41,348 nucleotides of DNA from Nitrospirota bacterium (GTDB lineage Bacteria > Nitrospirota > Thermodesulfovibrionia > Thermodesulfovibrionales > UBA1546). Shown one piece after another: positions 3,407-7,518 of the stretch (position 1 is its first letter; every line of letters begins with the position of its first letter). The DNA lies in NCBI GenBank assembly GCA_016208915.1, contig JACQXE010000039.1, positions 1 to 41,348 on the forward strand, read 5' to 3'. Made by a program: the position numbers and the translations under genes. The notes below the pieces were generated by a model. It was not told the DNA's origin. It saw only the letters and a list, made by a program, of their open reading frames with translations, and ran no database searches.

Positions 3407-4162
3407 TTGCGCAGGCCATTTATAGCTGCAAACTGGAAGATGAATAAAACAATTCCTGAAACAAAGGGATTTGTGAACGAATTTATATTGGCAGTAAAGG
3501 ATGTTGCCAGCACAGATATTGTTATAGCCCCCCCTTTTACTTCCTTGTCAACCGCTTCAGAACTGATTAGGGGTACCGGCATAAAGCTTGCTGCACAGGA
3601 TGTTTTCTATGAGGAAAAAGGCGCTTTCACAGGCGAGATATCTCCTGTCATGCTTTTGGATTCAGGCTGCTCATATGTAATTATCGGGCACTCAGAAAGA
3701 AGACAATATTTCGGAGAAAGTGATGAAATAATAAACAAGAAAATAAAGGCTTCAAGGAAAAATGCTCTTGGAGTGATATTCTGTATAGGGGAGTCCCTTG
3801 AACAGAGAGAGGCAGGAAAGACATTTGATGTCCTGAAGCAGGAGATAGAAAATGGTCTTCGGGATGTTGTTATGGAGAATATTGTTATTGCATACGAGCC
3901 TATATGGGCAATAGGCACAGGCAGGACAGCCTCGCCTGAACAGGCACAGGAGGCTCATGCCTATATAAGAAGCCGTCTCAGAGTTTTATATGGAAATAAA
4001 TCTGAAGAAATCTGTATAATATACGGAGGGAGTGCTACTCCTGAAAACATTGATTCTCTGATGGCTTGTCCGGATGTTGATGGCGCACTGGTTGGGGGCG
4101 CAAGCCTTAAGCCTGAGAGCTTCACAAGGATAGTCAGGTTCAGAAAAGCGGAGGGAAAATGA
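3407..4162 (+). CDS. tpiA: Triosephosphate isomerase
   Basis: Interconverts dihydroxyacetone phosphate and glyceraldehyde 3-phosphate in glycolysis/gluconeogenesis. At 251 residues it has the normal TIM-barrel length. The catalytic set is visible: Asn/Lys in AANWKMN (residues 8-14), the electrophilic His in GHSERR, the general base Glu in AYEPIWAIGTG, and the phosphate loops YGGSATPEN and DGALVGGASL. The start is a TTG at 3407 after an AGAAGGGA ribosome binding site; no ATG fits the conserved N-terminus. The stop overlaps secG by 4 bp (ATGA), indicating translational coupling. Confidence 0.96.
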   Translation: MRRPFIAANWKMNKTIPETKGFVNEFILAVKDVASTDIVIAPPFTSLSTASELIRGTGIKLAAQDVFYEEKGAFTGEISPVMLLDSGCSYVIIGHSERRQYFGESDEIINKKIKASRKNALGVIFCIGESLEQREAGKTFDVLKQEIENGLRDVVMENIVIAYEPIWAIGTGRTASPEQAQEAHAYIRSRLRVLYGNKSEEICIIYGGSATPENIDSLMACPDVDGALVGGASLKPESFTRIVRFRKAEGK

Positions 4163-4512
4163 CAACACTGCTTCTTATTATCCATATTCTTGCATGTCTG
4201 TTTCTAATCTTCATCGTTCTTATACAGAGCGGTAAGGGAGCAGAGCTGGGCGCTGCATTCGGAGGTTCGAGCCAGACACTTTTCGGCAGCAGGGGCGCTG
4301 CTACTTTTTTCAGCAAGGTTACAACAGTGGCAGCTATAGTATTTATGCTGTCATCTCTGTCTCTTGCAATTGTTTCAGCAAAAAGCAGCTCTATAATGAA
4401 CAAGACAGTTCCTGTAAAAGAAAAAGGCGCTGCACAAGTTCCTTTTCAGGGCGGAGGCGTTCAGCCTGTCCAGCCCCAGCAGGCGCCACAGCCTATACAA
4501 CCTGCAAAATAA
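4159..4512 (+). CDS. secG: Preprotein translocase subunit SecG
   Basis: Small inner-membrane subunit of the SecYEG channel. The 117-residue protein has two hydrophobic helices (about 3-22 and 50-70) joined by the family loop QSGKGAELGAAFGGSSQTLFGSRG, of which GLGAAFGG/LFG-type motifs are diagnostic. The C-terminus is a Pro/Gln-rich tail (about 95-117) of low complexity. It overlaps tpiA by 4 bp, a pairing common in bacteria. Confidence 0.94.
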   Translation: MTTLLLIIHILACLFLIFIVLIQSGKGAELGAAFGGSSQTLFGSRGAATFFSKVTTVAAIVFMLSSLSLAIVSAKSSSIMNKTVPVKEKGAAQVPFQGGGVQPVQPQQAPQPIQPAK

Positions 4513-4525
4513 GAGGTAACCGGAA

Positions 4526-4615
4526 ATGAGCGACTGGCTTTTTGGATTAGGTATGCTGGTAATATGGCTGGTTTTGCAGCTAATTGTTTTTCCTCGTTTA
4601 GGCGTCTCAACCTGA
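4526..4615 (+). CDS. Small single-pass membrane protein, possible selenoprotein with read-through to 4660
   Basis: A 29-codon frame 14 bp after secG has a plausible GAGGT ribosome binding site and encodes MSDWLFGLGM..., one transmembrane helix and the end FPRLGVST before TGA (4613-4615). The frame stays open past that TGA for 14 codons (to TGA 4658-4660), ending KKKC. A 6-bp hairpin (AGGGGT/ACTCCT, loop CGGGA) begins 13 nt after the TGA, in the right place and with a G in the first two loop positions, as described for bacterial SECIS elements. The short protein is likely; selenocysteine insertion is a hypothesis. Function unknown. Confidence 0.5.
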   Translation: MSDWLFGLGMLVIWLVLQLIVFPRLGVST

Positions 4616-4673
4616 GGCATTAACACAAAGGGGTCGGGAACTCCTAAAAAGAAATGCTGATAGTCTCCTGTTT

Positions 4674-5036
4674 GTGAAACCCTTTCTAATGGGGGAAGTA
4701 TCAGAGAATAACCTTCAAAAGAGACTCTGTTCAGTTTTCTGCTCATATTATAAACCGTCCAAGAACAATGAACTTGCCTGCATGGGTTTTCTGGTAATAA
4801 AGCGTCTCACAGAAAAAGGAATAGATATCAGGTTCGAAAAATCCGACAAGTCACTCGGCGCTGAAACTAAAGAAGTGCTGATAAAAGACATATGTACAGC
4901 CTGTCAATTTTATAAAGATGACTGTGATTTTGCAGGCAATAAAAAGGATGCGTTGCCTTGCGGAGGCTTTTTAGCGCTCGGTTATCTGCTCGATGCAAAT
5001 ATCATTTCTGTTGACGATATAAAAAATGCAGGATAA
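4674..5036 (+). CDS. Cys-rich hypothetical protein
   Basis: A 120-residue soluble protein with eight cysteines in a patterned array: LCSVFC near the N-terminus, a lone Cys in ELACMGF, then CTACQFYKDDC and PCGGF. Paired Cys-x2-Cys and Cys-x3-Cys spacings suggest a metal or Fe-S site. The start is uncertain: GTG at 4674 or ATG at 4689, neither with a strong ribosome binding site. The frame is open upstream to 4602 without a start codon. It is probably cotranscribed with the cupin and ferritin-like genes that follow. I do not recognise the family. Confidence 0.6.
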   Translation: MKPFLMGEVSENNLQKRLCSVFCSYYKPSKNNELACMGFLVIKRLTEKGIDIRFEKSDKSLGAETKEVLIKDICTACQFYKDDCDFAGNKKDALPCGGFLALGYLLDANIISVDDIKNAG

Positions 5037-5049
5037 ACTTTAAGAAATA

Positions 5050-5385
5050 ATGAAGCTATATAAGGTCTCTGATCTTGCTACGAAGAATAATGGTGAATAT
5101 GTCCTCGGCTCGCAGGAGCTTCATGCCCATGCCTGCTATCTTGTTTACGGCATCCTGAAGTCCGGTGAAGAGGGAAGGATTATTAAACCCGGAGGCGGAC
5201 ACGAAGAGATTGTCTGCATTGTTCATGGGGAAACTATACTGCGCAGAGATTTGGAATCCATTGCCTTAAAGAGAGGTGATGCATTTTATATCAAAGGAGA
5301 AGATATGTATTTTATGGATAATAGCGGAAATAGTGAAGTTATTTATATCATTGCAGGCGGGCACAGTGAACGACATGAACATTAA
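5050..5385 (+). CDS. Cupin-fold protein
   Basis: The 111-residue protein is almost entirely one small cupin barrel. Motif-1-like residues appear at GGGHEEIVCIVHGE (about 48-61) and motif-2-like residues in RGDAFYIKGEDMYFMDN (about 76-92). The C-terminus HSERHEH is His-rich and may add metal ligands. It lies 13 bp after the Cys-rich gene and 20 bp before the ferritin-like gene, so the three form a likely operon with a metal- or redox-related theme. Substrate unknown. Confidence 0.7.
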   Translation: MKLYKVSDLATKNNGEYVLGSQELHAHACYLVYGILKSGEEGRIIKPGGGHEEIVCIVHGETILRRDLESIALKRGDAFYIKGEDMYFMDNSGNSEVIYIIAGGHSERHEH

Positions 5386-5405
5386 AACACAGACAAGGAG
5401 TAATA

Positions 5406-5903
5406 ATGGAGAAATATTCCGCAAGAGAAGTTATTGAGCAGGCTATTCGCACAGAAAAACTCGGATATGAGTTTTATACCACTATGGCAAAAAAATTCAG
5501 AAAAGATTTTGCATTAAAGGATCTCTTTGAACTTCTTGCGTCAAAAGAATTGCGGCATGAAAAGATATTCTCCAAATTAAAGACTAAAGTAGAGAACGAG
5601 GAACCTGAAGGATGGGAGGACGTTGCACAGTATTTAAGGGCTATTGTGGAATCAGAGTTCTTTCTTGGCAAAGGAAAGTCTCTCCCTTCACTAAGAAATG
5701 TAAAGACGATAGGTGATGCAGTTGAGTTTGCTATCGGCTTTGAAAAGGAGACAATGCTTTATTTCTATGTAATTAAGGATGTTATTAAAGAAAAAGATAT
5801 AGTAGAAAATATTATTGAAGAAGAAAAGACTCATATCGTCTGGCTCAGTGAATTCAGGACAGAGCTGAAGAAAAAACAGATTCAGCGCGGAAGTTCAAAA
5901 TAA
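5406..5903 (+). CDS. Ferritin-like/rubrerythrin-type diiron protein
   Basis: The 165-residue four-helix protein shows the paired carboxylate/His signature of ferritin-like diiron proteins: EKLGYEFY (helix 1), KELRHEKIF (ExxH, helix 2), EKETMLYFY (helix 3) and EEEKTHIVWL (ExxH, helix 4). There is no C-terminal rubredoxin domain, so it is a rubrerythrin-like stand-alone domain, perhaps handling peroxide or iron. A GGAG-type ribosome binding site precedes the ATG, and it follows the cupin by 20 bp. Confidence 0.8.
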   Translation: MEKYSAREVIEQAIRTEKLGYEFYTTMAKKFRKDFALKDLFELLASKELRHEKIFSKLKTKVENEEPEGWEDVAQYLRAIVESEFFLGKGKSLPSLRNVKTIGDAVEFAIGFEKETMLYFYVIKDVIKEKDIVENIIEEEKTHIVWLSEFRTELKKKQIQRGSSK

Positions 5904-6956: not shown

Positions 6957-7330
6957 TGGATAGACATTTAAAATTCGGAAGATTCCTTCTTGAAAAAGGG
7001 TTTATAAACAGCCTTGATGTTATTGATGCTCGTCTCTTTCAGAAAAAGAACAATCTCAAGATAGGAAAACTTGCTAAGTCCAAGGGCTGGCTTACAGATG
7101 ATGCTATAGACAGGATACTTATCATTCAGGAGGAGACGAACGATAAGTTCGGCGAGATCGCTGAAAGAGAAGGCTATCTGTCAAGGGAGCAGGTAGAAAG
7201 ACTCTTAAAGGAACAGGAAGATTCTTATGTGTTTTTTGGCGAGGCGTTAGTTAAGCTTGGCGTTATAAGCGAGGAGCAGCTAATAGAGAATCTTAAGGAA
7301 TTCAACAGACTGAGATTTCAGAAGGAGTGA
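6956..7330 (+). CDS. Small helical-repeat protein resembling MshEN/GspE N-terminal modules
   Basis: A 124-residue soluble protein made of repeated helical units: KFGRFLLEKGFINSLDVIDA, KIGKLAKSKGWLTDDAIDRI, KFGEIAEREGYLSREQVERL and FFGEALVKLGVISEEQLIEN. Each unit of about 35-40 residues has the G-x-x-L...G-x-(I/L) pattern seen in the N-terminal domains of type II secretion/pilus ATPases, some of which bind c-di-GMP. No ATPase domain is attached, so it may be a free-standing sensor or adaptor. It is translationally coupled to the epimerase. Confidence 0.6.
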   Translation: MDRHLKFGRFLLEKGFINSLDVIDARLFQKKNNLKIGKLAKSKGWLTDDAIDRILIIQEETNDKFGEIAEREGYLSREQVERLLKEQEDSYVFFGEALVKLGVISEEQLIENLKEFNRLRFQKE

Positions 7331-7345
7331 ACATAGTGATTATGA

Positions 7346-7518
7346 AGCAGAATACAACATTTTCGCTCATTCCCTGCCTGCCGGCAGGCAGGTCGGTCGA
7401 TTCGACCTGCGAGGTATTTTGCCTCACCCCCCTCAAATCCCCCCTTATCAAGGGGGGACAAAGGGGGGTGTTATCGGAATATCAGCAAAATAAAGCCGCT
7501 CAAATGCTGTATTCTGCT
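7346..7518. repeat. Inverted-repeat (MITE-like) element, copy A
   Basis: Imperfect terminal inverted repeats AGCAGAATACAACATTT (from 7346) and, inverted, AGCAGAATACAGCATTT (to 7518) flank an inner core, GAGGTATTTTGCCT (7411-7424) and AATATCAGCAAAATAAAG (7478-7495), shared with copies at 17090 and 27978. Between the cores sits a G/C-tract hairpin region (CCCCCC...GGGGGG). Palindromes built on GCCTGCCGGCAGGC lie near the left end. It fills the gap between two convergent genes and may serve as a terminator. Confidence 0.7.

Follow-up and report, generated by a model that had tools for sequence, protein, structure and literature searches.

A predicted 44-residue membrane selenoprotein encoded downstream of secG in Nitrospirota, with relatives in several bacterial phyla

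An in-frame UGA at positions 4613–4615 of the window, which here denotes the whole stretch of 41,348 nucleotides that was analysed, almost certainly encodes selenocysteine (Sec, U), judging from the sequence evidence laid out below, and the short gene around it is accordingly read as that of a putative selenoprotein. The product is very probably a Sec-containing protein with a single membrane span, in which the insertion of Sec in vivo is what we infer from a coding frame, a conserved UGA, a covarying SECIS hairpin, a decoding machinery and a single helix that were each obtained by computation. The family spans several bacterial phyla. The parts of the locus are as follows.

3407–4162, plus strand: open reading frame that we take from recall to be tpiA (triosephosphate isomerase), overlapping the start of secG; the order tpiA-secG-gene is also found in relatives
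4159–4512, plus strand: secG (TIGR00810, 83.2 bits), with its stop codon at 4510–4512
4513–4517, plus strand: likely Shine-Dalgarno sequence GAGGT, 8 nt before the ATG, proposed from the sequence
4526–4657, plus strand: predicted selenoprotein coding sequence of 44 residues, its frame kept on both sides of the TGA across the 75 loci from the order
4526, plus strand: start codon ATG, from the reading of the frame
4529–4600, plus strand: predicted single helix (AlphaFold2), residues 2–25, mostly membrane span
4613–4615, plus strand: predicted Sec codon TGA (TGA in 212 of 213 loci, TGT in one; Sec machinery in the genome)
4629–4645, plus strand: SECIS hairpin, with the 5' arm at 4629–4634, the loop CGGGA at 4635–4639 and the 3' arm at 4640–4645
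4658–4660, plus strand: final stop TGA, from the reading of the frame

With the TGA taken as Sec, the frame at 4526–4660 translates as MSDWLFGLGMLVIWLVLQLIVFPRLGVST-U-GINTKGSGTPKKKC, in which 14 sense codons lie between the Sec-codon TGA and the final stop and the tail ends in KKKC. A standard listing of open reading frames gives at this locus a 29-residue frame ending in GVST. An earlier note had proposed a tiny selenoprotein after secG at this place, and both its coordinates and frame (ATG at 4526, TGA at 4613–4615, KKKC followed by TGA) and its 6-bp stem with loop CGGGA, 13 nt past the first TGA, were found to be exact; the selenoprotein reading itself gains support from selA, selB, selC and selD in the genome, from the TGA kept in relatives and from the covariation of the hairpin. 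The ATG is separated from secG by a gap of 13 nt, and the two genes probably share a transcript.

The codon at the Sec site was compared in 213 loci, of which 212 carry TGA and one carries TGT (Cys), these being the two outcomes that the earlier note had expected among relatives; TAA or TAG, which it had named as speaking against its reading, occurs in none. This count omits two loci that were read separately as TGA, L135 and also L232, the latter from the same genome as L132, and the removal of identical 75-nt windows leaves 193 TGA against one TGT. The final stop in the 75 genes of the order is mixed (TGA in 28, TAG in 24, TAA in 22 and one off the contig), so that the constant TGA at the Sec site is not a habit of these genomes. 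A codon-blind scan of 84,980 genomes with the pattern [VI]FP[KR]LGVPT, which excludes the codon in question, returned 38 stretches; 30 were confirmed as relatives, including metagenome-assembled genomes titled as Acidobacteria, Myxococcales, Anaeromyxobacter, Zixiibacteriota and Deltaproteobacteria, and TGA came next in all 30. The single Cys form (L260, genome G1183 of the Acidobacteria sample) reads EWLKAILFVAGYFALMRWVLPAMGIGT-C-MSGACKVPAPHKP and probably starts at an upstream GTG; the frame upstream of it is, by reading, presumably a pyridine-nucleotide-disulfide oxidoreductase. A plasmid collection searched with this Cys form and with a form from Deltaproteobacteria gave no match.

Protein sequence is kept on both sides of the UGA (alignments A1, A3 and A4). 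In 198 pairs of moderately close relatives, pN/pS amounted to 0.33 ahead of the TGA, to 0.71 between it and the final stop, and to 0.99 over the 45 nt that follow; the corresponding values for 28 disjoint pairs were 0.35, 0.69 and 0.94. The difference between 0.71 and 0.99 indicates that the tail is under selection, more loosely than the membrane span, and the value for the tail is raised because the hairpin constrains synonymous sites.

The hairpin consists of the stem AGGGGU/ACUCCU (6 bp, including one G-U pair) and the loop CGGGA, which starts 19 nt after the TGA. Folded as a single sequence it is mild against chance (z −1.95, with 8 of 200 shuffles folding as well), and the window alone thus proves nothing. 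Among the 75 relatives of the order, taken unaligned, a 5-bp hairpin with the loop starting at 19 and 5 nt long pairs in 76% of cells, while the median register among all those tried reaches 33%. In a MAFFT alignment of the 75 loci (A5), the six-pair stem showed 79.9% standard pairs against 60.8 ± 1.4 in shuffled controls, 86 cells changed on both sides against 25.0 ± 6.2, and a covariation of 0.533 against 0.185 ± 0.019, none of 500 shuffles reaching the observed value in any of the three; sliding the 3' arm by one to three columns gave at most 55.9% pairs and a covariation of 0.247. Counts of pairs with change on both sides and of further pair types were no different from those in the shuffles (353 and 195 of 500), which is what already variable columns should give. 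RNAalifold recovered the four inner pairs of the helix. A hairpin scan within the published loop and spacing limits, requiring at least 5 bp and a score of at least 10, passed 60 of the 75 Sec sites of the order and 19.8% of the 6,924 other TGAs in these loci; in Deltaproteobacteria and Myxococcota the figures were 59 of 65 Sec sites and 28.2% of the 2,839 TGAs found elsewhere in the same loci. The Sec sites scoring below 10 numbered 15 of 75 and 6 of 65, respectively. The loops are mostly CGGGN or CGTGN. This fits the bSECIS model (PMC13188914, available text), in which the first loop positions hold a G and a G or U often comes next. The limits given for that model are a loop of 3–9 nt, a stem of 4–16 bp, a G in the first two loop positions, a distance of 16–37 nt from the UGA and a minimum free energy of at most −7.5, and the window hairpin lies within those for loop (5), stem (6), G (second position) and distance (19 nt); the −13.9 kcal/mol calculated here is the figure for a 60-nt stretch rather than for the hairpin alone. 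The SECIS-like placement and loop G that had been claimed for the window are thus within the published model, with covariation in 75 loci.

The host assembly (2.5 Mb, 98.8% complete) encodes the full set of genes for which the earlier note had suggested looking. Profile searches detected SelA (630 bits), SelB (394 bits) and SelD (327 bits), and a tRNA-Sec was found with 69.6 bits, called by ARAGORN as tRNA-SeC with the anticodon tca; it lies elsewhere in the genome, no tRNA being reported by ARAGORN for the window or the selA and selB loci. Rfam likewise returned no family at gathering score for the window or around selA and selB. The SelD gene (L226, C18:13866-14783) has one in-frame TGA of its own, and host SelD is probably a selenoprotein itself. 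Counting the host, the family and order supply 101 genomes, and SelB exceeds the curated cut-off in 94 of them; the remaining seven comprise four that carry the gene and three that do not (G065 and G082, which have no SelA either, and G087, with SelA fragments containing a stop). Two of the four carriers, G012 and G092, have a full SelA, and the other two, G045 (99% complete) and G090, have neither SelA nor SelB over the cut-off, which may reflect assembly gaps or a loss under way; G045 also carries a gene for the DsbC-like predicted selenoprotein described below. Outside the phylum, SelB was over the cut-off in six of nine carriers and not in the other three. All 10 sampled genomes of genus g14 (family f9) have SelB and lack the gene, which is hence unnecessary for Sec decoding.

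When the same 101 genomes were searched with the 45-letter reading of the window gene, matches were found in 76, and 75 of these hold the gene with one TGA, the 76th (G062) being a chance match. The family pattern is M-x-D-[WL]-L followed by an apolar run in which W14, L17 and Q18 are nearly fixed; P23, G26 and the TGA are fixed in an alignment of 49 of the 75 members, and a short, mostly basic tail follows. The motif up to Sec is P-K/R-L-G-V-x-T-U, with Sec seven residues past the conserved proline, and the length ranges from 43 to 61 residues with a median of 45 (the 75 members of the order, minus one frame running off its contig). A sample of the phylum Nitrospirota gave matches in 110 of 395 genomes, 107 of them with a TGA-bearing row, and the three without were judged to be chance matches. 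Five rows of this sample marked as having no such codon (L217–L221) were judged by eye to be chance stretches and left out of the counts; all five have Cys at or near the Sec column, and there may be a distant Cys form among them. Searches outside the phylum used alignment A3 (35 members), the phyla being named after the record titles of the centre genomes. In the Deltaproteobacteria-type phylum they matched 170 of 395 genomes; the matches listed cover 151 of the 170 and all have TGA (146 directly and five after inspection, the rows being one codon short). In Myxococcota 35 of 195 genomes matched, all with TGA. In Acidobacteriota 93 of 396 genomes matched, with 91 TGA, one Cys and one chance match, and eight of ten rows initially marked as lacking the codon proved to be TGA on inspection. 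Further candidates were set aside, namely a second match in G005 (L091), a chance one in which the TGA is off-site and another stop breaks the frame, two unrelated frames (L092 and L093) and a match inside a long unrelated frame (L270, G1065); all four are left out of the counts.

AlphaFold2 predicts one helix over residues 2–25, with a pLDDT of 91/88 in the first 20 residues, and a disordered tail of low confidence. Of the 75 members from Nitrospirota, 74 have a tail that is more positive than their N-terminus, as have 48 of 65 others (17 of 65 do not). According to the positive-inside rule the positive flank of a membrane span lies on the cytosolic side, which would place the C-terminus in the cytosol; the protein is probably of single span with the N-terminus out and the C-terminus in. 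A Cys follows Sec in 70 of 75 members of the order, at i+8 (32) or from i+13 to i+15 (36), and in 62 of 65 others, mostly at i+5 (38) or i+6 (8), leaving 8 of 140 members with no Cys in the tail.

The topology, chemistry and partners of the following scheme are those we infer. SelB and tRNA-Sec would decode the UGA at 4613–4615 under the direction of the hairpin 13 nt downstream, yielding a 44-residue protein of the inner membrane with its N-terminus outside and its C-terminus in the cytosol. Sec would then sit at the cytosolic face of the membrane, seven residues past the proline that comes after the apolar run and ahead of the positive tail, usually with its Cys, where the selenol may react with a peroxide, a disulfide or a similar electrophile at or in the membrane. 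A selenenylsulfide could subsequently form with the tail Cys, where present, or with a partner, and would be re-reduced by thioredoxin or a similar donor; since such a Cys is missing from 8 of 140 members, a bond of this kind within the protein cannot hold for the whole family. The case for a redox role of this kind is evenly balanced.

Genomic neighbours bear on this role differently inside and outside the order. Within the order, where neighbour counts are lower bounds as overlapping frames hid some neighbours, the RpoA cluster lies upstream in at least 52 of 75 loci and L17 in at least 45 of 75, and the gene mostly follows the alpha operon (rpoA/rplQ). The identity of L17 (rplQ) was confirmed on one member, and RpoA, S4, S11 and S13 are what we take the other frames to be by reading. 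SecG is directly upstream in 13 of 75 loci; the family of the window follows tpiA-secG, and one of its genomes, G005, keeps the rpoA/rplQ place (L009). The position after secG that the earlier note had described therefore holds for the window and fails as a general rule, rpoA/rplQ being the commoner neighbours. Neither rplQ/rpoA nor secG says anything on redox. In three genomes (loci L087, L025 and L031) the gene follows a DsbC/DsbG-like gene whose active-site motif (DDPDUPFC and similar) contains a TGA and which is by its sequence a predicted selenoprotein gene as well; it starts about 760–840 bases before the ATG, matches DsbC_N/Thioredoxin_2, and has the motif DDP[DE]UP[FYH]C and a CxxCH-type motif near the N-terminus.

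Neither secG nor rplQ is a recurrent neighbour in the other phyla. Frame clusters antisense to the gene were ignored, here as in the order, and in the 65 loci from Deltaproteobacteria and Myxococcota, for which the figures are raw counts without a background rate and Pfam assignments come from one member each, an FmdB-type zinc ribbon (Zn_ribbon_8) lies on the same strand in 14, a thioredoxin in six and a CMD protein in five (same strand), and DsbD_TM on either strand in six. The zinc ribbon was seen at L151, L154, L159, L170, L173 and nine more loci. DUF302 lies upstream at L137 and downstream at L144, the Zixibacteria locus L148 has a thioredoxin and a CoA-binding protein upstream, and the neighbour of the Acidobacteria locus L136 is, by reading only, presumably an RND-type efflux frame. 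Taken together, the neighbours in the other phyla suggest thiol or selenol redox work at the membrane. The fuller proposal, that in Thermodesulfovibrionales the protein is a near-obligatory Sec, thioredoxin-fed selenol reductant at the cytosolic surface serving translation or secretion, as its place beside rpoA/rplQ or secG might imply, is doubtful.

Should the protein instead be a membrane-tethered binder of a metal or metalloid with Sec and Cys as ligands, the combination of both residues with a basic tail, the zinc ribbon in 14 of 65 loci and the presumed efflux frame beside L136 would find a ready explanation; many tails have one Cys only, however, and thiol redox is the direction indicated by the thioredoxin, CMD, DsbD and DsbC-like neighbours. 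Such a binder is improbable. Distinctly improbable, too, is a selenium switch, in which a 44-residue form made with selenium and a 29-residue form made without it would both act and would report on selenium supply rather than perform redox catalysis. Both forms would contain the full membrane span, recoding of UGA competes with termination in E. coli (PMC4513850, available text), and the genes come last in operons (rpoA/rplQ, secG) for which strong expression is expected. Chemistry is nevertheless favoured over sensing by the tail kept with its Cys (70 of 75 and 62 of 65) and by the Cys homologue without a UGA, and no regulatory partner was seen.

That the protein serves the Sec translocon or membrane-bound ribosomes, as a small subunit or a regulator, has an equally slim chance. 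This reading would draw on the position of the gene, which lies directly after secG in 13 of 75 loci or else closes the alpha operon (of the 75 loci, at least 52 have RpoA upstream and at least 45 have L17), an operon that itself follows the secY-bearing spc operon. The ends of housekeeping operons are, on the other hand, a common site for small constitutive genes, and the association with secG or rplQ does not recur in other phyla. Least credible of all, and rejected on the codon statistics and the coding signal after the TGA, is an ordinary stop closing a 29-residue membrane microprotein that ends in GVST, with non-coding sequence and a chance hairpin beyond it: standard gene finding does list the 29-residue frame and the single-sequence fold reaches a z of only −1.95, but TAA and TAG are absent from 213 loci while the final stop is mixed, residues, frame and length are kept beyond the TGA, the hairpin covaries at a fixed distance and the Cys homologue (L260) reads through.

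Read as a selenoprotein, the product shares with its bacterial counterparts the in-frame UGA, the bSECIS-like hairpin, SelA, SelB, SelC and SelD, and a Cys counterpart. The eukaryotic SELENOK and SELENOS, which are larger and ER-associated, also have one span, an N-out/C-in topology and Sec in a cytosolic tail; the likeness to the microprotein in span, topology and Sec tail is one of working, with no relation in sequence claimed. Short bacterial selenoproteins exist in the KCU-star (DUF466) and selenobacteriocin families. Their Sec motifs are CU and SGUG (PMC13188914, available text), and the present family differs in having no NCBIfam match. The DsbG-like selenoprotein (NF041057, Table 1 of the same text) has a role in envelope redox, and a DsbC/DsbG-like gene adjoins ours in three genomes; it has a thioredoxin fold with UxxC, whereas ours has no fold beyond the helix. 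A further difference from the families in the available text of that review is the scarcity of the Cys form, found here in only 1 of 213 loci.

Searches of Pfam-A and NCBIfam release 20 gave no match for the window protein and chance-level matches only for 70 members (49 from A1 and 21 from A4). Table 1 of the 2026 review (PMC13188914) holds 119 bacterial selenoprotein families and subfamilies, some of them from the paper of Haft and Tolstoy (2025) and from that on the Olavius symbiont (2007), and none is recognisable as a single-span membrane selenoprotein of about 44 residues. In 2007, conserved in-frame stops were surveyed in 191 genomes, which included Geobacter, and one new selenoprotein emerged, a cytochrome (PMC1914089, available text). 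No description of the family was found in the literature searched, most subscription papers and preprints lying outside its scope; the family is new to the sources checked, which is a narrower statement than new to print. The finding of bacterial selenoproteins rests largely on Cys homologues, and according to the available text of the deep-Sep authors, selenoproteins without them may be filtered out (PMC12013277); genes this short would also be easily skipped, so that the near-absence of Cys homologues and the short length together would account for the family having been overlooked. Its members would change counts of selenoproteomes and would show very small proteins using selenium at the surface of the membrane. 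A simple system of 44 residues would also suit the question of why Sec is retained with hardly any replacement by Cys.

Elsewhere in the window, the region downstream of the gene (4674–5900) holds an open reading frame of 120 residues that contains several Cys and matches no family of Pfam or NCBIfam, followed by a cupin-like gene and then a rubrerythrin-like gene. Further along, at 7302–7460, frames on both strands read LPAGRQG and PACRQAG, and we presume these to resemble a dispersed repeat of many assemblies.
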